Assembly (NCBI RefSeq): GCF_010667575.1
Contig: NZ_JAABNT010000010.1
Coordinates: forward strand, 62,001-126,000
Source of the DNA: Sulfitobacter sediminilitoris
Lineage (GTDB): Bacteria; Pseudomonadota; Alphaproteobacteria; Rhodobacterales; Rhodobacteraceae
Direction: 5' to 3'
DNA: 64,000 bases
Part shown: piece after piece, positions 16,087-58,853 of the stretch
Layout of the letters: each line of letters starts with the position of its first letter
How positions within the stretch are numbered: the stretch's first letter is position 1
Notes under the pieces: model-generated
Database searches by the model: none
What the model saw: the letters and a program-made list of their open reading frames with translations, nothing else
Told to the model about the DNA's origin: nothing
Program-made: the position numbers and the translations under genes

Positions 16087-16485
16087 TCATTTGGCGGAAT
16101 GTAATTCCAGGTACTGCATGATGATGTCGTCGGTCACATTGCCCGAGGTGGTCGAGAAGTACCCACGCGCCCAGAACCGCCTGCCCCAGTAGCGCTTGCG
16201 CAATTCGGGGTACTCCATCTGGATGCGACGCGACGACCGTCCCTTGATCCGCTGCATGACATCCGAAAGCGACAGCTTTGGCAGGATCGACAGGAACATA
16301 TGGACGTGATCCCGGGCCAGCACGCCATGCACGATGTGAACGCCCAATTCGTCACAGGTCTGCCGGATGATCTGCCTGAGCCGTTCACGCATCGGACCCT
16401 GTAGCACAGCGTACCGGTATTTCGTGACCCAAACGACGTGGAACCTATGGTAAAATCGCGTGTGCGCGGATGACGAGTAGCGCAT
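16087..16485 (-). CDS. tnpA: IS200/IS605 family transposase TnpA (Y1 HUH nuclease)
   Basis: 132 residues, the normal size. The HUH metal site is H60-V-H62 in RDHVHMFL, and the catalytic tyrosine is Y125 in IIMQYLE; GYFSTTSGNVTDD before it is the usual lead-in helix. It excises and inserts the element as a single-stranded circle. The ATG at 16485 follows AGGAGGAGA closely; an upstream in-frame start would lie within the inverted repeat and is rejected. Both the ribosome-binding site and the start codon lie in one arm of a perfect 28-bp inverted repeat, so translation is probably strongly repressed. All catalytic residues are intact. Confidence 0.9.
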   Translation of the reverse strand: MRYSSSAHTRFYHRFHVVWVTKYRYAVLQGPMRERLRQIIRQTCDELGVHIVHGVLARDHVHMFLSILPKLSLSDVMQRIKGRSSRRIQMEYPELRKRYWGRRFWARGYFSTTSGNVTDDIIMQYLELHSAK

Positions 16486-16553
16486 GATCTCTCCTCCTGA
16501 ATGTTGAAACCATACCACCTCCGCGGGTTTCAACATTCAGGAGGAGAGATCAT
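16484..16553. repeat. Perfect 28-bp inverted repeat over the tnpA ribosome-binding site
   Basis: Arms 16484-16511 and 16526-16553 are exact reverse complements, separated by a 14-base loop. In the tnpA transcript the right arm forms the 5' side and the left arm, which includes AGGAGGAGA and the AUG, forms the 3' side. The stem would hide the start from ribosomes, as known in principle for IS200. The perfect length is notable. Confidence 0.85.
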
Positions 16554-16861: not shown

Positions 16862-17905
16862 TTATGCCGCCAGTCTTTTCGCAGATTTGTTCTGATCTGC
16901 GGTGCCATGCTGAGTGCCAAAGCAGGCTTGCGCCACATACTCTGGGATTTCCGGATAGGCCTTTTGGCTGCTGCCAGAGATGTATCCAAGTTTGAGCAGG
17001 TTCAGCTTTGCCTTGCTGGGCAGTGCTGAAAGGGTCTGTGTATCAGGGAAAAGACTCTCGCACTCCAAACCATTGGCAAACATCACCTCATGGTTTTCCA
17101 GAAGGATATGATGATATGTCACTGACGTCAGTTCGTGCCGTTGTTTGATGGTCGTGCCATTCACTAGGTACTTTGCCGGAACAAATGCTTCGTCTGCGCC
17201 GAAATGGAGTTCGATCTTCCACCCTGTCACAAGGATCAGGTGGTCCGGTGACACAAGCAGGTCATCGTGCGGGTAGCCAAAGCCAAGAGCGCCCTTGGAA
17301 ATATGGATTGGCGCAAGATGTTTGCTGTCCGGACCGAACTTTATATGGCTCTGGCTTTTCCAGATGATCCGCTGATCCGCAGCATCCAGTGTCCTGACCA
17401 GATCACCCACCTCAAGCGTTTCGACCGGGCGTTCGCCAGCAGGTGTTGCGATCAACGATCCCTCTGAAAGACAGGCAACTTCGGCGAAATCGCAAGTTCC
17501 TTTGACCGTGCTGTCTGCCAGTTGGGCCGCACCGTCATAGAGCGAATATGTCCGTGTCGTTGCAATTGTCGGAAACTCGTCCGCACCAACGATAACGTTA
17601 TGACAGTTGGACGATTGAAAGATCGTGTATTCGCCGGTGGTCTCGTGGTCCTTGTAAAGGTCGTTGACCGGTGCAAGGCCACTGGCAATCACTGTGCCAT
17701 CGTGGGCAATAACCTCCCATGACGGATCCGTTAAGTCTGTATCGCCGGTGGCATGCTGCGCACGAAGCCGGAACTGGTCCGAAGACGTTCCCATCGATCG
17801 CACACCTCTGATTTTAATAGAAAGTTCGCCGCTTAAGTTGTCTTCGATCTGCTCGAAGGAGGCAAACGTCGCGATTTGAAGTCCTGAAAACTGGAGCTCT
17901 ACCAT
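16862..17905 (-). CDS. Hint (Hedgehog/intein) domain protein
   Basis: 347 residues. Residues 1-140 are a beta-rich N-terminal region of unknown type. A Hint_2 domain starts at Cys145 (ACLSEGSLIATPAGERPVE) and continues through LEVGDLVRTLDAADQRI and SPDHLIL with the conserved His222. This family is frequent in Rhodobacteraceae and is often linked to type I secretion substrates or surface proteins; the Hint fold can carry out autoproteolysis, with the Cys as nucleophile. No signal peptide or RTX repeat is visible. No ribosome-binding site is obvious before the ATG. Its link to the flagellar locus is positional only. Confidence 0.75.
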   Translation of the reverse strand: MVELQFSGLQIATFASFEQIEDNLSGELSIKIRGVRSMGTSSDQFRLRAQHATGDTDLTDPSWEVIAHDGTVIASGLAPVNDLYKDHETTGEYTIFQSSNCHNVIVGADEFPTIATTRTYSLYDGAAQLADSTVKGTCDFAEVACLSEGSLIATPAGERPVETLEVGDLVRTLDAADQRIIWKSQSHIKFGPDSKHLAPIHISKGALGFGYPHDDLLVSPDHLILVTGWKIELHFGADEAFVPAKYLVNGTTIKQRHELTSVTYHHILLENHEVMFANGLECESLFPDTQTLSALPSKAKLNLLKLGYISGSSQKAYPEIPEYVAQACFGTQHGTADQNKSAKRLAA

Positions 17906-19651: not shown

Positions 19652-19666
19652 TTAACCCAGCTTTAA
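19652..19666 (+). promoter_or_regulatory. CtrA-type box upstream of the sigma factor operon
   Basis: TTAACCCAGCTTTAA matches TTAA-N7-TTAA exactly, 72 bases before the ATG. A further TTAA follows at 19672. It probably drives sigma factor-fliK-flgD. Confidence 0.75.
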
Positions 19667-22798: not shown

Positions 22799-23263
22799 TC
22801 AATCGCGCAGACTGAGATTTGATTTATACGTGTTGATCCGCGCTGTCCTGATCACCGGAAAGTCCACGTACAGCTTGCGCACGATCTGAGCGGCGAGTTT
22901 TTTCCTGCGTTCTTCTGCGTCCATCGGAGCTGCAAGGCTCAGGTCGGTTTCGGCCAGTTCAGCAATCGCAGTGACAGTGGCGTCGCGCAGCCTGGCGCGG
23001 CCAACCGAACCATTGATGGCCTCAAAGGCTGCTGACCCCATCACGTAGACATCGATGTCAAAGACAAGGTGCAAAGTGCTTCTGGGCTGCAAAAGCTGCA
23101 TGGTGAATTTGCCTAACGGCATTTTGAAAAGATGCTCTGGCTTGGTTTCCGCAACTGTCCCTTCGGGAACGGGGGCATCGGTCGGGCGCATGAAACGCTC
23201 GCCAAAATATCCCAGTGCGCCGGCACCGGCGACGAAAACACCGATGATCAGGAGTTTGATCAT
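22799..23263 (-). CDS. FliL-like membrane protein at the end of the flgFGAH operon
   Basis: 154 residues with one N-terminal membrane segment (MIKLLIIGVFVAGAGALGYF) and a periplasmic domain. HLVFDIDVYVMGSAAFEAINGSVGRARLRDATVTAIAEL and the later RKKLAAQIVRKLYVDFPVIRTARI resemble the FliL periplasmic fold, but the long acidic linker of the true FliL (45706) is missing. It follows flgH with GAGG before the ATG and is the last gene of the operon. A basal-body or stator-associated role is likely; exact function is unknown. Confidence 0.6.
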   Translation of the reverse strand: MIKLLIIGVFVAGAGALGYFGERFMRPTDAPVPEGTVAETKPEHLFKMPLGKFTMQLLQPRSTLHLVFDIDVYVMGSAAFEAINGSVGRARLRDATVTAIAELAETDLSLAAPMDAEERRKKLAAQIVRKLYVDFPVIRTARINTYKSNLSLRD

Positions 23264-25511: not shown

Positions 25512-26246
25512 TCAGCCGCTACGACCCAGCCGCTGAATCACGGTTTTTGTCAGGTCGTCGTCCTGGTTCATCAATTTGATTGAATTTTCATATGCGCGCT
25601 GAATGTCGATCAGGCGGGTCATTTCCAGAACTGCTTCGACATTGCTGTTTTCGACAAAGCCCTGTTTGACCTTGGGATCGGTTGCCTGTTGTGGGGCGGC
25701 GGCATTGTCTGGGAGATGATACATGCCGCCGCCCAGGGACAGCATTGCTGCCCCGTGCTCGATTGTTACTACGCCGATGGTGCCCAGCACGGCGCCGGTC
25801 CGGTCGGTTATGGTGCCGCCGGTGGTTATGGTTATGTCCTGCCCGACATCGTCAGGCAGGGTGATTGGTCCGCCACCCGCATCCAGCAGTGGCTGACCGC
25901 TTGCTGTCTTAAGCTGGCCGTCAACATCCAGGATCAGACGGCCATGACGGCTGTAGCCTGCTCCGCCGCCATCAAGTTGAAAGGACATCCAGCCGTCCCC
26001 GCCCAAAGCGATGTCAAACGGATTGCCTGTTGGGACCAGCGTTCCTGCATTCAGATCAAGATATGTGCCGCGATCCTGAACATAGCTGATGTCACGGGTG
26101 GTCGAGCTGTCCTCAATCGATTCAAGGAGCGGGTTGATTGACTTGAAACCCGCCGTAGAGGCGTTGGCAAGGTTGTGCGCGGTCATGTTCAAGCTGCGCT
26201 CAAGCGCCGTCGCTTGTGACAGGGACACATAGCTGATGTTGCTCAT
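25512..26246 (-). CDS. flgF: Flagellar proximal rod protein FlgF
   Basis: 244 residues. N-terminal SQATALERSLNMTAHNLANASTAGFKS and C-terminal NSNVEAVLEMTRLIDIQRAYE are the rod-family D0 halves, and its place next to flgG supports FlgF. The ATG at 26246 is preferred to an upstream Met because GGAGG lies five bases before it. First gene of flgF-flgG-flgA-flgH-fliL-like; a one-mismatch CtrA-type box lies 97 bases upstream. Confidence 0.92.
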   Translation of the reverse strand: MSNISYVSLSQATALERSLNMTAHNLANASTAGFKSINPLLESIEDSSTTRDISYVQDRGTYLDLNAGTLVPTGNPFDIALGGDGWMSFQLDGGGAGYSRHGRLILDVDGQLKTASGQPLLDAGGGPITLPDDVGQDITITTGGTITDRTGAVLGTIGVVTIEHGAAMLSLGGGMYHLPDNAAAPQQATDPKVKQGFVENSNVEAVLEMTRLIDIQRAYENSIKLMNQDDDLTKTVIQRLGRSG

Positions 26247-26342
26247 TAAGGCCTCCATCGGCGGAGCAGGTGCCGGAGGTGTTTGGGTCAGATGGCAGTC
26301 TGTTGCAAAAACAAATTTTCATATCTACAAGGATAAGGCAAG

Positions 26343-26357: not shown

Positions 26358-26375
26358 CCAAGAATAAAATTGAGC

Positions 26376-28178
26376 ATGCAAACCATATCACTCTTTATCG
26401 CGGCGACAGTTCTTGCATTTGCGGGAATCGATGCAGGCGCGGCAACAAAAGAAGAGGCCGTGACCGCCCCTGTCGCGCGCACCTCCGCCCGAGCAGGCGG
26501 ATGGCGTGGCGACCTTGATTTGCAGCACTGGTCGACCGGTACTTTTCATCGTGATCTGGTCGAGACAATTCAGAACCTGAGCGCTGCGCATGGATCAGAG
26601 CGGATTGGCGTCATGCTTGATGCCGCAGAGCTCTACCTGACACACATGCTGCTCTACGAAACATCTTCGACGCTTGCCGGGATCAATCCGACCCTTCCTG
26701 ACCATACGAGGCGCTATGTTGCGTTAAGCCATGCGCAGACCTTGCTGGGCGGCGAGGCGGTTTCTTCGTTTGATGCCTCGCCGCTGGCAGATCCGGACCG
26801 GCCTGACAGTGCTTTCTGGCGTGCTCTTCAGGCGATCGCTGTCGGGGATGTCGGGATGCTGAACGATAACATCGAGGCCAGCTTTACTGGTCTTGGCCTG
26901 CAATCCCGCGCGGTTCTGCGCGCCATGCTTCCTGTCTTTATCGAAGCTGCGATTGAAACAGAACACTTTAGATATGCTGAGGCAGCGCTGAAGCTGATGT
27001 ATGAACTGCCGGATCTGGATTATTCACCGACAGGCTATTTTCTGAGAGGCCGTCAAGAAGAGAGGCAGGGCAACAATTCTTCTGCGCTTACGGCATATTT
27101 TGAAGCCGCAAAAGGATGGGATCAGTACGCGGCCCGCGCACGGCTTGCCGTCGCAGATATGTCCTTGAGCGATGGCACTGATGGGGCGCTTCTGGCGGCA
27201 CAAAGCATTTTGGCCGACGGACTTGAGGCGTGGCGTGGGGGCCAGCACGAGGTGGAGATCCTCAAGCGCCTTGCGCGGGTTCTTTCTGCACGCCGGGACG
27301 ATGTCGCAGGCCTTCTCACACTTGGAAAACTGATCGCGCGGTTTCCTGCTGCGAAGGAAGCCGAGGTTGCAAAAGCTGAGGTACAAAAGTTGTTGGAGCA
27401 ACTTTATAGCAAAGGCGGCGAAGGGCAGTATGCGCTGGCCGACTGGATGAAGGCGCATCTGAAATTTCTGCCTTTCTTTCGCACCTTGCCAGACTTTGCC
27501 CGCCACACAGAAACCTTTGCCGACTACCTTCTGGCGCTTGGTGCCACCGACCTTGCCGCAAAGGAGTTTCAGCGCGCAATCCGGCTTTTGCAGGAAGTGG
27601 AGAGCGCCGCATCAGAGACAGCGCTGCAAGATTTGTTTCGTCTTAACTTAAAGCTGGCAACCGCACAGATGCGCGGGGGTCTCCCGCAAGACGCACGCAC
27701 CACCCTTGAGCTGATGGATGTGGCGCCCGGCCCGCAGAACGCGCAAGATCACGCCACGATCAAGGCGTCTGTGCTCGCCGAACTGGGCGACAGGCAGGCG
27801 CTACTGGATACGGTGGTTCCGACACCATCTTCTGATCATCAGCGTAGAATGGCGATGGCATTGGCCGAAGAGGGTCAATGGGATAAATCGCGCGACATTC
27901 TGGCGGAGTTCTGGGCCCAGCAGCCAAGCGCGTTTTCGGTGCAGGATGCCACGCATCTGCTGATCGCGGCGAACAGATCCAACGACGCGCAGACCCGAGA
28001 CAGGGTCATCCGGGCCTTTCCGGGACTGACAAATAACAAAACATTAGTTGAACTGGCTGAAAGTTTGAGTGCCGAAGTACCAACCCTTCTATTACTGAGC
28101 CACGATCAGGCCGCCGCGCGTCTGGACAAGCTGGACGAGGCTTTTGAAAGCATCAAAAATTCCGGAATATCACCCTGA
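26376..28178 (+). CDS. Uncharacterised periplasmic alpha-solenoid protein in the flagellar locus
   Basis: 600 residues with a clear signal peptide (MQTISLFIAATVLAFAGIDAGAA). The rest is almost wholly helical, with repeated Ala/Leu-rich helix pairs that look like TPR or HEAT-type units, for example FRYAEAALKLMYELPDLDYSPTGYFLRGRQEERQGNNSSALTAYFEAA around residues 195-245. No enzyme motif is visible. The ATG at 26376 replaces the TTG six bases upstream. It sits between flgF and flgE. A stator or basal-body scaffold, perhaps doing the job of the missing MotC, is possible; I do not recognise it. Confidence 0.75.
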   Translation: MQTISLFIAATVLAFAGIDAGAATKEEAVTAPVARTSARAGGWRGDLDLQHWSTGTFHRDLVETIQNLSAAHGSERIGVMLDAAELYLTHMLLYETSSTLAGINPTLPDHTRRYVALSHAQTLLGGEAVSSFDASPLADPDRPDSAFWRALQAIAVGDVGMLNDNIEASFTGLGLQSRAVLRAMLPVFIEAAIETEHFRYAEAALKLMYELPDLDYSPTGYFLRGRQEERQGNNSSALTAYFEAAKGWDQYAARARLAVADMSLSDGTDGALLAAQSILADGLEAWRGGQHEVEILKRLARVLSARRDDVAGLLTLGKLIARFPAAKEAEVAKAEVQKLLEQLYSKGGEGQYALADWMKAHLKFLPFFRTLPDFARHTETFADYLLALGATDLAAKEFQRAIRLLQEVESAASETALQDLFRLNLKLATAQMRGGLPQDARTTLELMDVAPGPQNAQDHATIKASVLAELGDRQALLDTVVPTPSSDHQRRMAMALAEEGQWDKSRDILAEFWAQQPSAFSVQDATHLLIAANRSNDAQTRDRVIRAFPGLTNNKTLVELAESLSAEVPTLLLLSHDQAAARLDKLDEAFESIKNSGISP

Positions 28179-28249: not shown

Positions 28250-28304
28250 AACCCATCTGTGTATGTCTATCGGTGAGGCAGAAAAAAACAATAAAGGTGG
28301 TACA

Positions 28305-29606
28305 ATGAGCATCTCAAGCGCGCTTCAGATAGGTGTGAGCGGTCTTCAGGCCAACTCGAAGATTGTTGGAAGCATTTCTGAGAACATCGCGAACGCAAAT
28401 ACCGTCGGATATCGACGCGGGTTTGCGCATATGGTCACGACAACGGCATCGGGCGTAAATGGTGATGGCGTCCTGTCAGTCGCTGCGGTGGGCCAACTGG
28501 ACATGTCCACTGCGGGCGGCCTGATCTCCACGAATTCAGCGACCGATATGGCGATTGGCGGCAACGGGTTTTTCGCCGTTTCGATGAATCCGAACGAAAC
28601 TGTTTCTACGAACTATCTGCTGACGCGCGCGGGATCTTTCCTGCCGGATGCAAACGGCGATCTGCGCAATGCCGCCGGATACTATCTTGCGGGTTTCCCT
28701 TTTGGGCTGGACGGAACAATCGGATCTGTTGACCGCAGCTCGTTTGATCAGATGGAAACCGTGAACATCGGCAATTTTAATATTTCCGCCGGTGTCTCGA
28801 CAGAAATCTCTGCCTTCGGCAACCTGCCGTCGCAAGATACCGGCATCGCAACACCCGGCGCGCCCTTTGCTACCTCTTCAGAGTATTTTACCCCTCTCGG
28901 CGAAAGCCAGAGAATTTCCTTTTCCTGGGCTCCCACCACGACGGCCAACATGTGGGATTTGTCGATCTCGGATCAGAACGGCGACCCACTTGGAACGGTA
29001 TCAGTTGAATTCAATGACTCAGGACCAGAGGCCGGCTCGCCACTTGCCTATACCGGCGCTGCATCTGTGGCCACGGCACCTGCGGACTTTGTGTTTGACC
29101 CCCTGACCGGCGCTGCAACGATCACCCTGAACAACGGGACCGTGCCGCAGGTCCTTGATATCAATCTTGGCGCGCCAAACTCCTTCGATGGGATCACGCA
29201 GTTTGCCGGGGACTTCAGCCTATCGTTCGACCGCGACGGCTCAAGCGTGGGAGAGCTGGTGCGCAGCGAGATTTCCGAAGACGGCACACTCTTTGGCGTT
29301 TTTGACAACGGGATGCGGCGGGCGCTGTATCAGATTCCTGTCGCCATCGTGGACAATCCCAATGGACTTATCGAAGCCAAGGGCAACGCCTACAAGCTAT
29401 CTGGTGAGAGTGGCTCGTTCTCAGCGCTTGAGGCCAAATCTTCAACAGTTGGTTCGATCAACGCTGGTGCTCTAGAGTCCGCCAACGTGGATATCGCGCA
29501 AGAGATGACCGAATTAATCAAGGCGCAACGCGCGTTTTCAACGAACGCCAAAATCATCACAACCGCAGACGAACTGATGGAAGAAACAACCAGATTGAAG
29601 CGCTAG
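28305..29606 (+). CDS. flgE: Flagellar hook protein FlgE
   Basis: 433 residues. N-terminal LQIGVSGLQANSKIVGSISENIANANTVGYRR and C-terminal SANVDIAQEMTELIKAQRAFSTNAKIITTADELMEE are the D0 helices of the hook; the centre is a FlgE D2-like beta domain. It forms the curved hook, with length set by FliK. The ATG at 28305 is preferred to 28263 because AAAGGTGG precedes it and the extra 14 residues are unlike the family. Confidence 0.95.
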   Translation: MSISSALQIGVSGLQANSKIVGSISENIANANTVGYRRGFAHMVTTTASGVNGDGVLSVAAVGQLDMSTAGGLISTNSATDMAIGGNGFFAVSMNPNETVSTNYLLTRAGSFLPDANGDLRNAAGYYLAGFPFGLDGTIGSVDRSSFDQMETVNIGNFNISAGVSTEISAFGNLPSQDTGIATPGAPFATSSEYFTPLGESQRISFSWAPTTTANMWDLSISDQNGDPLGTVSVEFNDSGPEAGSPLAYTGAASVATAPADFVFDPLTGAATITLNNGTVPQVLDINLGAPNSFDGITQFAGDFSLSFDRDGSSVGELVRSEISEDGTLFGVFDNGMRRALYQIPVAIVDNPNGLIEAKGNAYKLSGESGSFSALEAKSSTVGSINAGALESANVDIAQEMTELIKAQRAFSTNAKIITTADELMEETTRLKR

Positions 29607-43728: not shown

Positions 43729-44388
43729 CTATTTCAGTCTGATCCCGTTCAGGTCCTGATCGCCGGGCAGTTGAGACCGCTCAAGAATGATCTTGGAAAT
43801 CGCCCGCGCCCGAACATCCGACACCTTTGCAAGAATGGGCGCCGCCGCGCGTGGATTCATCTCGCCCAGGATCATGATCGTTGTCTCGATGTCCAGATCA
43901 TCGATGATCCTCGCCGCATCTGCGGGTTTCATGTTCTTGTAGAATTCGATCAGGCGGTTCAAATCCTCGGTCTGCGATGCCTCAACCCGGGCCAACAATT
44001 CCTCGATTGATGTCTGAAGTTCTGTCAGTGACGCTTTTTCGATCTCCAGGCGCTCCATCGCCAGCGCCAGCTCTGACTTTCGCTGTTCAATCTCCTGTTT
44101 TTGAAGCTCGACAAGCTCCCGCTCGCGATTCAAAGACCTCAAAACCTCTTCGGGCGCGTCATAATTGTCGGTCTTCTCCGGCAGGTCTTCGACCAAAGGT
44201 GGAATGTCGTCAGCTGGCTCCGGGGAGGCCTTGTCTCCGCTGCCGGCAGCAGCCAGAACAACAATCTGGTCATTAACAGGACCGGTGCCCTGAAACATCG
44301 GCAGTTCCGGAAACGACATCGCCGCCTTGGCAAACAAGGTCAGCCCCAAACCGCCAACAATCAACTTCCCACTTAGCATGTTACGCAC
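43729..44388 (-). CDS. motE: MotE-family protein
   Basis: 219 residues. An N-terminal signal or anchor segment is followed by a coiled coil (about 80-150, LVELQKQEIEQRKSELALAMERLEIEK) and an MgtE-N-like domain, YKNMKPADAARIIDDLDIETTIMILGEMNPRAAAPILAKV. In rhizobia MotE is a periplasmic chaperone for MotC, which stabilises the MotA/MotB stator. No motC gene is present in the window. The start may be GTG 44388 (AGGG upstream) or ATG 44379. It is last in fliL-fliM-membrane protein-motE. Confidence 0.8.
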   Translation of the reverse strand: MRNMLSGKLIVGGLGLTLFAKAAMSFPELPMFQGTGPVNDQIVVLAAAGSGDKASPEPADDIPPLVEDLPEKTDNYDAPEEVLRSLNRERELVELQKQEIEQRKSELALAMERLEIEKASLTELQTSIEELLARVEASQTEDLNRLIEFYKNMKPADAARIIDDLDIETTIMILGEMNPRAAAPILAKVSDVRARAISKIILERSQLPGDQDLNGIRLK

Positions 44389-44391
44389 GGA

Positions 44392-44757
44392 TCAGACCCT
44401 CGCCGTATCGGCTGAATCAAAGAATGCGCGGACCAATTCCTTCTTGTCACGCACCCTGCGAAGACCGGGGATTTCGGGCGCCGGTGGCGCCGCCCGACGC
44501 GACGAAAACGCCGCTTCTTCGGGCGCGGACGCCGGGGCCGCCTGTGGTTGTGGTGCCTCTTCGGCAACTTCGATGTTCCTGCGCATCTCCGCCACAGAGG
44601 TTTGCGACTTATCAACAGCAGAAGAAAACTCATCGACCAGCGGCTCAAGCTCCCGAAGCGTTGCCATCAGCAACCGAACCTTGCGAGAGACCAGATAGCC
44701 GTAGGTGATGCTGCCGATCAAAAGCACAATGATTACACCGTCAATTATCGCTGCCAT
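44392..44757 (-). CDS. Small membrane protein between fliM and motE (DUF6468-like)
   Basis: 121 residues with one N-terminal membrane helix (MAAIIDGVIIVLLIGSITYGYLVS), then a coiled-coil-prone part (LRELEPLVDEFSSAVDKSQTSVAEMRRNI), and a Pro/Ala-rich tail. It occupies the position where other alphaproteobacteria carry a DUF6468-type flagellar protein; that name is from memory of gene order and should be taken as tentative. The ATG at 44757 overlaps the fliM end by 17 bases, so translation is coupled. Confidence 0.65.
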   Translation of the reverse strand: MAAIIDGVIIVLLIGSITYGYLVSRKVRLLMATLRELEPLVDEFSSAVDKSQTSVAEMRRNIEVAEEAPQPQAAPASAPEEAAFSSRRAAPPAPEIPGLRRVRDKKELVRAFFDSADTARV

Positions 44758-45694
44758 CTTCTTCCAGCTCCTCTTTCTTTGAAATCTTCTCGGTAATCTG
44801 AACGGCGACAAAGCCGTTATTTCGTTTGCCCAGTGACACTTTGAACATCGGCTCATCCGCGCCGACAAGCGTCGCCTGCTCTCCCTCCTCGATACCAAAA
44901 TCAATGGTATCGCCGGGTTGCCATGACATGATCTTTTGAATGGGGATCGCCTCTTCGGCCAAAACAACCTCAAGATCCATGTGCGCGCGTTCGATCTGGC
45001 CACTGATCAAATCGTGCCATGTCCGCTGGTCTTCACCCCGGTTGCCAAAATAGATCTTGCTCAGGGCGGGCCGGATCGGTTCCAGCGCGTCATAAGGGAT
45101 CACAACCTCCAGAATGCCAACATGCCCCGCCATCGCGACCGAGAATTTCATCCGGGCGCACAAGCTGGCATTCTTGACGATGCCGGCACTATCGGGATCG
45201 GTTTCCACCCGGTCCAACAACAATTCAGCTGAGCCAACAACAGACAGCGCCCGCTGTAACTCCGCAAGGATCGCAGCCGCGACCCGTTCGCCAAAGCCAA
45301 GCTCGATCGCTGTGAATTCGCCAGTTTCATCTTCTTTGAGCTGCTTTGCGCTGCCCCCCAGCATCAGTTCCGTTGCCGTCAGCAAAAGCGTCCGGTCGAT
45401 GACTAACAGAATCTCGCCTTCGAACGGCACGCCCGTACTGACAGCCAGCAAGACAGGTGACGGAAGGGTTTCGATGATCTGGCCCATCGGCACATAGTCC
45501 AGTGACATCAGCGACGACTCGCAGATGGCGCGGGTCAGATCAGGAAGCGAGACAGACAGATTTTCAACCAGCCGCTCACCGATGATGTCAAGCATCGGAA
45601 GCCGGTCAAAGGTGAAGTCTGACAGCCGGATGATCTCATCGATCAGGCTGGCGCCCTCTGACTCAATCTCACTTTCTGACAGCACCTCACTCAC
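44741..45694 (-). CDS. fliM: Flagellar motor switch protein FliM
   Basis: 317 residues. The N-terminus LSESEIESEGASLIDEI is a diverged form of the CheY-binding LSQxEID element. The middle CheC-like domain and the C-terminal SPOA domain (AIPIQKIMSWQPGDTIDFG, PMFKVSLGKRNNGFVAVQI) make up the C ring with FliG and FliN. It follows fliL by 11 bases. Confidence 0.92.
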   Translation of the reverse strand: MSEVLSESEIESEGASLIDEIIRLSDFTFDRLPMLDIIGERLVENLSVSLPDLTRAICESSLMSLDYVPMGQIIETLPSPVLLAVSTGVPFEGEILLVIDRTLLLTATELMLGGSAKQLKEDETGEFTAIELGFGERVAAAILAELQRALSVVGSAELLLDRVETDPDSAGIVKNASLCARMKFSVAMAGHVGILEVVIPYDALEPIRPALSKIYFGNRGEDQRTWHDLISGQIERAHMDLEVVLAEEAIPIQKIMSWQPGDTIDFGIEEGEQATLVGADEPMFKVSLGKRNNGFVAVQITEKISKKEELEEDGSDN

Positions 45695-45705: not shown

Positions 45706-46437
45706 CTACTGCACGATCAAGTCGTTGATCAGGATTTCCTGCGGCAGATCACTGCCCACTGCCGCCCGCGCGCGTTTCAAAAGCTCTCCCTTGATGTAGA
45801 GAATCCCCGCCATGCCACGCACATCGGCTTCGGACAGACCCCGCAGGTATCCGTTGAACAGGTCCCGCATGAACGGTTCACGTTCCTCCATCAGCGCACC
45901 CGATCCCTCGTCGGGCCGATAGGCCACCACCAGGTTGATCTTCAGAAACGCCGTTTTCTCGAACCCCTGCGCATCAAAGCTCTGGATGTTCGTCGTCATG
46001 TCCCCGAAGTTAAGCAAACCGGTGTCAAGCACGTCACCTTTGTCGCCACCGTACTCATCCTCTTTTGCCTGCAGGGCATATGCCTTCTCGGCATCATGGC
46101 CAGCCTTGGCCAGAGGGTCCGTGATATCGGTCCGCAACGTGGTCTTTTTCTCTCCACCATGACCATCATCCTTGGCCTCTGCGTGATCGTCATCCTTGGC
46201 CTCTGCGTGATCGTCGCCCTGACCATCGCCGTGGTCTTCCTCTTCGCTCTTGTAATCAGGCGCATAGGCTTCGGCATCCTGCATGTAGGCCATGCGCGCC
46301 AGAAAGAATCCGCCGCCAAGCGACAACAGGCACATCAACGCCGCAGCCAAAAGAAGCTTGCGTGACCCGCGCGGCTTTGCACCGGCGTCCTCGTCAGTTG
46401 CTGCCTCTTTTGCCTTCGCCTTCGGTTTCTTGGCCAT
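45706..46437 (-). CDS. fliL: Flagellar basal body-associated protein FliL with acidic His-rich linker
   Basis: 243 residues, longer than the usual 150-180. A Lys/Ala-rich cytoplasmic start, a membrane helix (about 28-50), then a linker at 64-98 rich in Asp, Glu and His with a repeated DDHAEAKD unit, and the FliL domain (about 120-243: TGLLNFGDMTTNIQSFDAQGFEKTAFLKINLVVAY). FliL encircles and stabilises the stator. The linker could bind metal ions or water-swell in the periplasm. First gene of the fliL operon, divergent from fliF across one CtrA-type box. Confidence 0.9.
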   Translation of the reverse strand: MAKKPKAKAKEAATDEDAGAKPRGSRKLLLAAALMCLLSLGGGFFLARMAYMQDAEAYAPDYKSEEEDHGDGQGDDHAEAKDDDHAEAKDDGHGGEKKTTLRTDITDPLAKAGHDAEKAYALQAKEDEYGGDKGDVLDTGLLNFGDMTTNIQSFDAQGFEKTAFLKINLVVAYRPDEGSGALMEEREPFMRDLFNGYLRGLSEADVRGMAGILYIKGELLKRARAAVGSDLPQEILINDLIVQ

Positions 46438-56023: not shown

Positions 56024-57223
56024 ATGGCAGCGACAACGCAGCCCAAGATTTTCAAGAAGATCGAAGTCATCGAAGGTGGTGGACACCACGGCGGTGGCTG
56101 GAAGGTAGCCTACGCTGACTTCATGACGGCGATGATGGCATTTTTCCTTCTGATGTGGATTCTTGCGAGTTCTGACGAACAGAAACTGCGCGGGATTGCG
56201 GAATACTTTACCAACGCAACCTTGCCCGGCGGCAGCGGTGTTCTGGATGGCGCAACGCTGGGTCCCCCCGGCACATTGACCGCATCCAGCGGCAGTATCG
56301 TTGCGCGTGGCTCTCAACTGGGGGCGATGGATGACCCCTCCCCCACTCAATGGGAAGTGAGGGATGTCACGGAGACATCTAATCCGGATGAAAAGGTGCT
56401 CGGCAACAAGCAGGGCGACCACGAAAATCCTGCGTCTGCTGATGCTTCGGAAAAGATTCAAAAGGCCGGCCCTGACGGTGACAGCGGAACCGCAAGTGGA
56501 CAGTCCGCCGAAATCGACATCAAGGCAGAGCATCCCATCGACGACATGAAGTTCAAGGAACTGCAGAACGATATCCTGCAGGCGATGCAGCAGAACCCCG
56601 ATCTTGATCCGCTGGTTGAGAATGTCATTTTCGAACAAACGCCCGAAGGTCTGCACATCCAGATCATTGATCAGGAAGGCAAACCAATGTTCCACAGTGG
56701 CCGCGCCGAAATGGCCGGTGCCACCGAAACACTGATTGGCAACCTTGGCAAATCACTGTCCCAGTTGCCCAACCGCATTATCCTGTCCGGCCACACGGAC
56801 GCGGTGCCCTTCGCGAATAATGATACCTACGACAACTGGGATTTGTCGTCTGACCGCGCAAACGCAACACGCCGGGTGTTCGAGGCATCAGGCGTGGACC
56901 GCAACCGCATCATCCGGGTGTCCGGCATGGCTGATACACAGCTTCTAAAGCCCGAAAACCCCGAAGATCCCTCTAACCGACGCATCTCGATCATGGTGCA
57001 GTACCGAACGGAAGATCAGGCTGACGCTCCTGTCCAAAAGGCAGACGCCGAACCGCACGGAAAAGGGACCCACGACGATCACGTGTCACCGTCAAAGCAA
57101 ACCGGTACGGACCACACCGACCCTTTGTTGCAAGAGACAAAGCATGCGGCGGATCATACCACGCCGACGCCCAGTCCGCTTGATGATCAGGTCTTTGAAA
57201 ACCTGCGCAATGCGCTGCGCTAA
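56024..57223 (+). CDS. motB: Flagellar stator protein MotB
   Basis: 399 residues, longer than the enterobacterial protein because of a 100-residue acidic linker after the plug. The single membrane helix carries the ion-binding Asp in WKVAYADFMTAMMAFFLLMWIL. The OmpA-like domain (about 240-330) has IILSGHTDAVPF and LSSDRANATRRVFEASGV and anchors the stator to peptidoglycan. The C-terminal tail is charged. It is transcribed separately from motA, which is unusual for this pair, and its stop overlaps the convergent gene. Confidence 0.92.
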   Translation: MAATTQPKIFKKIEVIEGGGHHGGGWKVAYADFMTAMMAFFLLMWILASSDEQKLRGIAEYFTNATLPGGSGVLDGATLGPPGTLTASSGSIVARGSQLGAMDDPSPTQWEVRDVTETSNPDEKVLGNKQGDHENPASADASEKIQKAGPDGDSGTASGQSAEIDIKAEHPIDDMKFKELQNDILQAMQQNPDLDPLVENVIFEQTPEGLHIQIIDQEGKPMFHSGRAEMAGATETLIGNLGKSLSQLPNRIILSGHTDAVPFANNDTYDNWDLSSDRANATRRVFEASGVDRNRIIRVSGMADTQLLKPENPEDPSNRRISIMVQYRTEDQADAPVQKADAEPHGKGTHDDHVSPSKQTGTDHTDPLLQETKHAADHTTPTPSPLDDQVFENLRNALR

Positions 57224-57983: not shown

Positions 57984-58853
57984 ATGACGATTATTATCGG
58001 CTTTATCGTTGTGTTGGGCATGGTCTTTGGCGGATACATGCTGTCTGGCGGCGACATGGGCATCATCATGCATGCTCTCCCCTTCGAAGGGATGATGATC
58101 GGCGGCGCGGCTTTGGGATCCTTCATCGCCGCGAATTCCTTTGGCAATCTTCTTGGTGCCGGCAAAGCGATGGTCAAGGCATTCAAAGGCCCCAAGTGGA
58201 AAAGCGCAGACTACATTGATCTGCTGAACCTGATGTTCACGCTGGCCAAGATGTATCAGCAGGACGGCATGCTGTCTTTGGATGAACATATTGAAAACCC
58301 GAAAGAAAGCAGCATCTTCTCGCAATATCCAAAGCTTCAGAAGGACCACTTTGCCGTGGACCTGATCACAGACAGTTTCCGGATGCTGGCGCTTCAGTTC
58401 GATGACCCCTATCAGACCGAAGATGTGATCAACCGCAAGCTCAAGAAACACCATCACGAGGCGCTCACCGCCCCTCACGGGCTGACCACTGTCTCTGATG
58501 CCCTGCCTGCCATCGGGATTGTTGCAGCGGTTTTGGGCGTGATCAAGACCATGGCCTCCATCGACAAGCCACCCGCCGTGCTGGGTGCTATGATCGGTGG
58601 CGCGCTTGTGGGTACGTTTCTGGGTGTTTTCCTCGCGTACTGCTTTGTCTCGCCTCTCGCGAACCGGCTTGAGGCGATCGAGGAGCAGGACGGCATGTAT
58701 TACTCGGTGATCCGGGATATCTTTATCGCCATTCTGCACAACCACTCACCTGCGATCTGCACCGAAATCGGACGCGGCAACATCCCGACATCGCTGCAGC
58801 CCAGCTTTTACGAGATGGAAGAAGCCCGTCAAAGCATGCCACAGGCCGCTTGA
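57984..58853 (+). CDS. motA: Flagellar stator protein MotA
   Basis: 289 residues with four hydrophobic helices. GFIVVLGMVFGGYMLSGGDMGIIMHALPFEGMMIGGAALGSFIAAN and GLTTVSDALPAIGIVAAVLGVIKTMASIDKPPAVLGAMIGGALVGTFLGVFLAY are MotA blocks, with the Pro residues of the proton channel. The cytoplasmic loop should face FliG. No CtrA-type box is seen upstream, unlike most other operons here. fliJ follows by three bases. Confidence 0.95.
   Translation: MTIIIGFIVVLGMVFGGYMLSGGDMGIIMHALPFEGMMIGGAALGSFIAANSFGNLLGAGKAMVKAFKGPKWKSADYIDLLNLMFTLAKMYQQDGMLSLDEHIENPKESSIFSQYPKLQKDHFAVDLITDSFRMLALQFDDPYQTEDVINRKLKKHHHEALTAPHGLTTVSDALPAIGIVAAVLGVIKTMASIDKPPAVLGAMIGGALVGTFLGVFLAYCFVSPLANRLEAIEEQDGMYYSVIRDIFIAILHNHSPAICTEIGRGNIPTSLQPSFYEMEEARQSMPQAA

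Follow-up and report, generated by a model that had tools for sequence, protein, structure and literature searches.

The locus and its TPR gene

By the nomenclature of PMC12363192, the window, the whole stretch of 64,000 nucleotides of Sulfitobacter sediminilitoris that we analysed, is a fla2-type flagellar gene cluster (Table 1). In our own comparison it has the same blocks as the pMaD5 plasmid cluster of Marinovum algicola DG898, the fla2 reference strain of that study, and its gene order is closest to that of a Sulfitobacter plasmid cluster. Flagella of this type are often plasmid-borne (21 of 43; PMC12363192). As a preliminary description made from the sequence had stated, MotE is encoded here; its match to MgtE_N is weak, and other fla2 clusters have clear homologues of it. 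The gene beside it encodes a pflI-like protein, named after the operon described in PMC10954123, which has no Pfam match above cut-off and whose phmmer matches lie beside motE in loci across the class.

Table 1. Features of the window that bear on the TPR gene and its proposed partners (positions within the window).
Feature	Position	Strand	Basis
flgF, divergent neighbour of the TPR gene	25512..26258	-	Order kept in 9/9 genomes and 8/8 plasmid loci
MotK-related TPR protein of the fla2-type flagellum, no detectable AMIN, 600 aa	26376..28178	+	ORF, TPR_14, profile homology
N-terminal hydrophobic segment, probable signal peptide (about 23 residues)	26376..26444	+	Hydropathy; cleavage site inferred
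TPR body, residues 43-572	26502..28091	+	hhalign, in order against MotK profile columns 281-724, one large gap
flgE, downstream of the TPR gene, same strand	28263..29606	+	Order kept in 9/9 genomes and 8/8 plasmid loci
motE (E-ring / FlgY-type), proposed binding partner	43729..44388	-	MgtE_N E 0.0025, below cut-off; homologues in 9/9 fla2 genomes
pflI-like membrane protein in fliL-fliM-pflI-motE block, start approximate	44392..44805	-	Position; phmmer
fliM	44741..45694	-	Order as in annotated loci L013, L015-L019
fliL	45706..46437	-	Pfam FliL above cut-off
motB, proposed target of the MotE / TPR protein pair	56024..57223	+	MotB_plug, OmpA above cut-off
motA, fla2-type	57984..58853	+	62-84% identity in 8 other TPR-gene genomes; next best 56%

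The frame between flgF and flgE is a real gene. It runs intact from an ATG at 26376 to a stop at 28178 and encodes 600 residues (602 from an alternative TTG start at 26370), the minus-strand frame across it contains many stops, and 14 homologues with 25-54% identity align along the whole length of the protein, so that the 600-residue frame first described at this conserved place holds up. The helical-repeat body that had been proposed is borne out by a Pfam TPR_14 match above the cut-off (26.8 bits against 23.5), and the reported absence of an enzyme motif agrees with the four Pfam and three NCBIfam matches listed, none of which is to an enzymatic family. The best NCBIfam match, tol-pal YbgF, reaches 25.6 bits against a cut-off of 90.1, and we read it as TPR-type also. 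Hydropathy is highest at the N-terminus, where 13 of 15 family members carry a lysine or arginine within the first 10 residues and the window copy carries none. A single-sequence structure model was poor (pLDDT 46.3), the hits of PDB sequence searches were repeat proteins, generic or designed, and short stretches of unrelated proteins, and a scan of viral contigs found no homologues.

Among 72,556 plasmid records searched with tblastn, 19 from six genera have a match to the TPR gene, and all 19 copies are annotated as 'hypothetical protein'. We examined eight of these records, all from Roseobacteraceae and together spanning the six genera; each has the gene flanked by flgF and flgE, with the neighbours named only as generic hook/basal-body proteins in two. 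The copy of Roseivivax marinus (L019, 17743-19594) is annotated as two overlapping frames, possibly because of a frameshift or a sequencing error. A profile search of 148 genomes of the host's family found near-full-length members in nine, leaving aside a 101-residue match in G004 and short TPR matches in other genomes. These nine are exactly the genomes with a fla2-type MotA (at least 62% identity; the next MotA has 56%). All nine also have a fla2-type MotE, and in all nine flgF and flgE flank the TPR gene. One of the loci (L009, from G107) was found by HMMER and the profile and missed by tblastn; it was left out of the family alignment, as were L010 and the split copy of L019.

TPR proteins frequently act as chaperones. 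In every locus examined the gene has flgF and flgE as its neighbours and stands away from motE, motA and motB, so that its product could instead be a periplasmic chaperone that serves the assembly of the rod, hook or rings, in line with the nearby flgF, flgG, flgA, flgH and flgE. We regard this as unlikely, however, given that the gene co-occurs with the fla2-type MotA and MotE, and that rotation, but not the assembly of filaments, depends on the relatives discussed below, MotK and fssB/CC_2058 (PMC10954123, PMC7885107).

Three minor features of the window may be recorded here. Adjoining flgH is a gene for a 154-residue protein (22799-23263, minus strand) without a Pfam match at E <= 1; in the Roseivivax marinus locus the gene at this place is annotated as FliL family. 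The sequence TTAA-N7-TTAA, which we take to be a CtrA-like motif, occurs at 19652, 32915, 35015, 37458, 46520, 50162, 52970 and 55924, by coordinates each time no more than about 100 bases ahead of a flagellar frame, and is absent from the interval that precedes the TPR gene. Next to the first flagellin gene are two minus-strand frames, of which one (16087-16536) looks transposase-like, presumably of the IS200/IS605 type, and the other (16865-17905) encodes a Hint_2 domain protein.

Relation to MotK and to long AMIN+TPR proteins

MotK of Cereibacter sphaeroides is a periplasmic protein that, together with MotE, is essential for flagellar rotation; mutants lacking either are paralysed, MotK is reported to interact with MotE and MotB2, and MotE with MotK and MotB2 (PMC10954123). 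The flagellum concerned is called 'Fla2' in that paper and is fla3-type in PMC12363192; orthologues of MotK in Rhodobacterales belong to fla1- and fla3-type clusters. For comparison we assembled a MotK set, made up of the genes that immediately follow motA in 15 loci not of the fla2 type. Four of 20 candidate regions (L103, L105, L110 and L115) had no clear MotK frame and were left out, and L112 was left out of the alignment, though it was used in one earlier comparison. One member, L104, has 652 residues and a plausible 24-residue signal, the figures that PMC10954123 gives for MotK.

Compared by hhalign, the window family and the MotK body match with a probability of 97% (E 1e-10); the 442 matched columns keep their order, broken by one large gap, and the score is 95.6 (81.5 with the roles swapped). 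TPR arrays resemble one another and Pfam sees just TPR repeats in the window protein, which could thus be an unrelated TPR protein, no more similar to MotK than any TPR array would be. Block-shuffled profiles do reach half of the match score (48.0, the best of 30). The other controls remain lower: 24.5 for the best of 30 column shuffles, 23.4 for the reversed profile, 27.1 for MotC in the same script, and, for two TPR families of the same bacteria, 29.5 (a decoy that has about 576 residues and seems to carry a signal) and 35.7 (a YbgF/CpoB-like family), the decoy rows being the longest central frames, a few of which have odd lengths and may therefore be wrong frames. With the MotK match in order along nearly the whole body, and with class-wide relatives found by a plain HMM and encoded among flagellar genes in 18 of 20 regions inspected, we consider a mere resemblance of repeats very improbable. 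The window protein escapes detection by a plain HMM of MotK, so the direct link to MotK rests on the profile-profile comparison and on an intermediate family found across the class.

The MotK profile matches 101 of the 148 genomes, some of them partially (in G039, the AMIN part only); the count was 103 before G000 and G069, each with a single short match, were removed. Both the TPR family and MotK have matches in G088 and G092, which are the genomes with two systems.

One of the two genomes removed, G000, carries a decayed flagellar remnant on its contig C12 (L026, 18912-19832, and L027, 128-5574). Its pieces look like motB, flgE, fliK and flgD, the MotB plug by search and the rest by eye, and no other flagellar gene was seen by eye among frames of at least 150 residues in the 39 kb examined. 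The remnant is perhaps an old fla1-type system.

The intermediate family emerged when 385 alphaproteobacterial genomes were searched with the profile of the window family: 141 have matches at E <= 1e-4, mostly in frames of 1,000-1,400 residues. We picked 20 regions from these genomes, spanning E 1e-36 to 5e-8, and a plain HMM of the window family finds the protein with E 5e-11 to 2e-38 in 19 of them and with E 4.9e-14 in the twentieth; having been found by searching with the window family, these proteins are not an independent sample. In 18 of the 20 regions the long protein is surrounded by flagellar genes (fliM, pflI, motE, a MotB-like frame, fliP), with motE present in 17 of the 20 and MotA matched in none; the two regions without flagellar neighbours sit on short contigs. 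Homologues of the window protein thus occur mainly within flagellar loci, in all nine member-bearing genomes of the host's family and in these 18 regions.

The C-terminal bodies of the long proteins match the window family with E 2.6e-39 and 1.1e-37 over 520 and 505 columns, the best profile match of all that we compared, and they match MotK with E 7e-25 and 8e-25. In an unrooted tree the window family, MotK and the long proteins form three separate groups (support 100, 100 and 99), and the mean distance is 4.16 between the window family and the long proteins, 5.20 between MotK and the long proteins, and 5.71 between the window family and MotK. The long proteins have about 850-1,350 residues with AMIN domains, compared to 600 without AMIN in the window protein, and lie beside fliM, pflI, motE and fliP. 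In size, domains and place they are like CC_2058 (FssB) of Caulobacter, a likeness drawn without a sequence alignment; deletion of fssB (CC_2058) leaves Caulobacter cells flagellated and non-motile (PMC7885107). The profile matches are best explained if the window protein, MotK and the long CC_2058-like proteins are one alphaproteobacterial family. For MotK and the Caulobacter proteins, the account in PMC10954123 describes just a shared N-terminal fold and no sequence similarity; here, MotK and the long AMIN+TPR proteins are tied together by sequence profile.

MotK and the window protein share a homologous TPR body and a motE gene in the same cluster, and the window protein, with its hydrophobic N-terminus, may be exported as well. 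They differ in that the MotK genes examined stand directly after motA, in a fliL-motE-motA operon, whereas the window gene lies outside that operon between flgF and flgE, and in that an AMIN domain and a long linker precede the body in MotK. The window protein is very probably the fla2-flagellum version of MotK and of its longer alphaproteobacterial relatives. Its function had been called unknown at first, which needs amending now that these relatives, MotK and fssB/CC_2058, have been studied.

Comparison with rhizobial MotC

The preliminary description had noted that MotC, the MotE partner in rhizobia, is not encoded alongside MotE, and our search agrees: the window and eight fla2 loci together have 2,955 open frames, among which a MotC profile finds nothing better than E 0.28, compared to 6.5e-156 to 1.3e-183 for the positive controls. 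This profile was built from 74 of 75 rhizobial MotC loci that we collected. A search of 289 genomes of the class with the MotC model NF009442 gave no match and is uninformative, since the control genomes had none either.

Could the window protein itself be the orthologue of MotC proper? The two would share the presumed role of MotE partner, reported for MotC (PRK12798, of Rhizobiaceae and relatives) in S. meliloti (PMC10954123, PMC13023049), and AMIN is absent from both, which for MotC we judged from its length (383-558 residues with the longest start) and from a structure model that is an all-helical repeat protein without an N-terminal beta domain (pLDDT 77.9). The best fold matches of that model include TPR superhelices, none below E 0.001. 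There is also a weak similarity through the class-wide profile, which matches MotC with a probability of 83% one way and 51% the other (scores 53.9 and 44.2); the best decoy scores 36.8 and 180 MotC shuffles at most 47.3. In the aligned core, W-R-G-D..E..LLR is paired with APGT..EEAALRR of MotC. When the three branches are merged, however, the scores are just 45.5 and 43.8 against 38.9 for the best decoy, and the direct comparison of the window family with the 75 MotC proteins gives a probability of 1.8%. No MotC model is among the NCBIfam matches listed for the window protein, which is far nearer to the AMIN+TPR family (E 2.6e-39), and the neighbourhood differs, motC following motB in two annotated loci (motB-motC-fliK). 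Orthology with MotC therefore seems very unlikely to us. The profiles hint at common ancestry, and MotC would be at most a remote relative of the window protein; a review of the E-ring proposes on structural grounds that MotC and MotK are homologous and CC_2058 and PflA alike (PMC13023049).

By eye, the window protein (28113-28175), MotC and MotK each have a short, charged, helix-like stretch at the C-terminus (ARLDKLD.., KKLDAIDALL and R..I..LL).

The missing AMIN domain and the proposed motor role

AMIN is a putative wall-binding domain. The shared body is preceded by 28-63 residues in 15 members of the window family, compared to 243-331 in 15 MotK proteins. At E <= 1, an AMIN profile has no match in any of the seven genomes that have only a fla2 system, and it matches all four other genomes, whose AMIN domains are rows of that profile; the genomes with both systems have a single AMIN match each, at the MotK locus. 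An HMM trained on MotK finds AMIN in 18 of the 20 long class-wide proteins (i-E < 0.01), in two copies in nine, and an iterated profile, trained partly on the long proteins, finds it in all 20.

Among the frames of the window and the eight fla2 loci, the best AMIN score (E 0.017, best domain 3.6) belongs to a frame on the strand opposite to motB. The weak match is gone with the iterated profile, whose best value is 1.2.

Since two of the three groups carry AMIN, as by report does PflA, loss of the domain in the fla2 branch is the simplest reading, which the unrooted tree does not prove. PflA of Campylobacterota is reported to have an AMIN-like N-terminal domain (PMC11870540), in contrast to the window protein with none detectable, and both PflA and FlcB of Borrelia are TPR proteins reported to interact with the MotE homologues FlgY and FlbB (PMC11870540, PMC13023049). 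We liken these two to the window protein by their published description, not by sequence.

Given its homology to MotK (PMC10954123), the window protein is very likely the MotE partner that the preliminary description suspected to be missing. That description had offered a stator or a basal-body scaffold; the protein is flagellar and a MotK homologue, which suits the former, though it is not MotC, and we found no evidence for a separate basal-body disk. We judge it likely that the protein is the fla2 counterpart of MotK, a TPR solenoid that would be exported, bind the E-ring protein MotE, reach MotB either directly or through MotE, and promote the recruitment or opening of stators. By analogy with its relatives, cells without it would assemble filaments that do not turn. 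The conserved place, the co-occurrence with fla2 MotA and MotE, the homologous body and the absence of a detectable AMIN were computed here; the large gap in the match, the position of the gene outside the motE-motA operon and the lack of N-terminal charge in the window copy speak against a MotK counterpart. The part played by MotE is not the same everywhere, since in C. jejuni deletion of pflA removes stator density and deletion of flgY, the gene for its MotE homologue, leaves it as in wild type (PMC11870540).

As the window branch is without AMIN, its hold on the envelope would have to come from partners, which may be MotE, MotB and FliL. How the missing domain is compensated is pure inference; one speculation is that the OmpA domain of MotB, or FliL, serves as the peptidoglycan anchor in its place. 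A broader idea, to which we give somewhat less than an even chance, is that the stator scaffold was rebuilt without a wall anchor of its own: horizontally spread fla2 flagella would use a spoke that is free of AMIN and that protein partners alone hold in place, a condition arrived at independently of rhizobial MotC, and MotC, MotK and the window protein would be one family in which AMIN has come and gone. If this is true, binding of the spoke to peptidoglycan is dispensable for stator activation.

The general framework was already known; what appears to be new is the fla2 branch and the absence of AMIN from it. In the portions of the MotK, Marinovum algicola fla2 and AMIN/PflA literature consulted we found no description of either, and in the main text of PMC12363192 the terms TPR, MotE and MotC never occur; a listing in supplementary tables is possible, because a screen by the E-ring group covered TPR proteins encoded close to flagellar clusters (PMC11870540). 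The window protein puts a name to what is likely a missing motor part of the fla2 flagellar type. The fla2-only bacteria, which appear to run their motor without AMIN, also offer a natural test of the role of this domain in motor spokes.

In two of the class-wide regions (L223, 1446-3531, and L213, 2126-4161), the genes between motE and the long AMIN+TPR gene appear by eye to encode a CheZ-like protein and two small membrane proteins with a single helix each, the latter of which is MotB-like. These proteins are possibly dedicated partners of the spoke.
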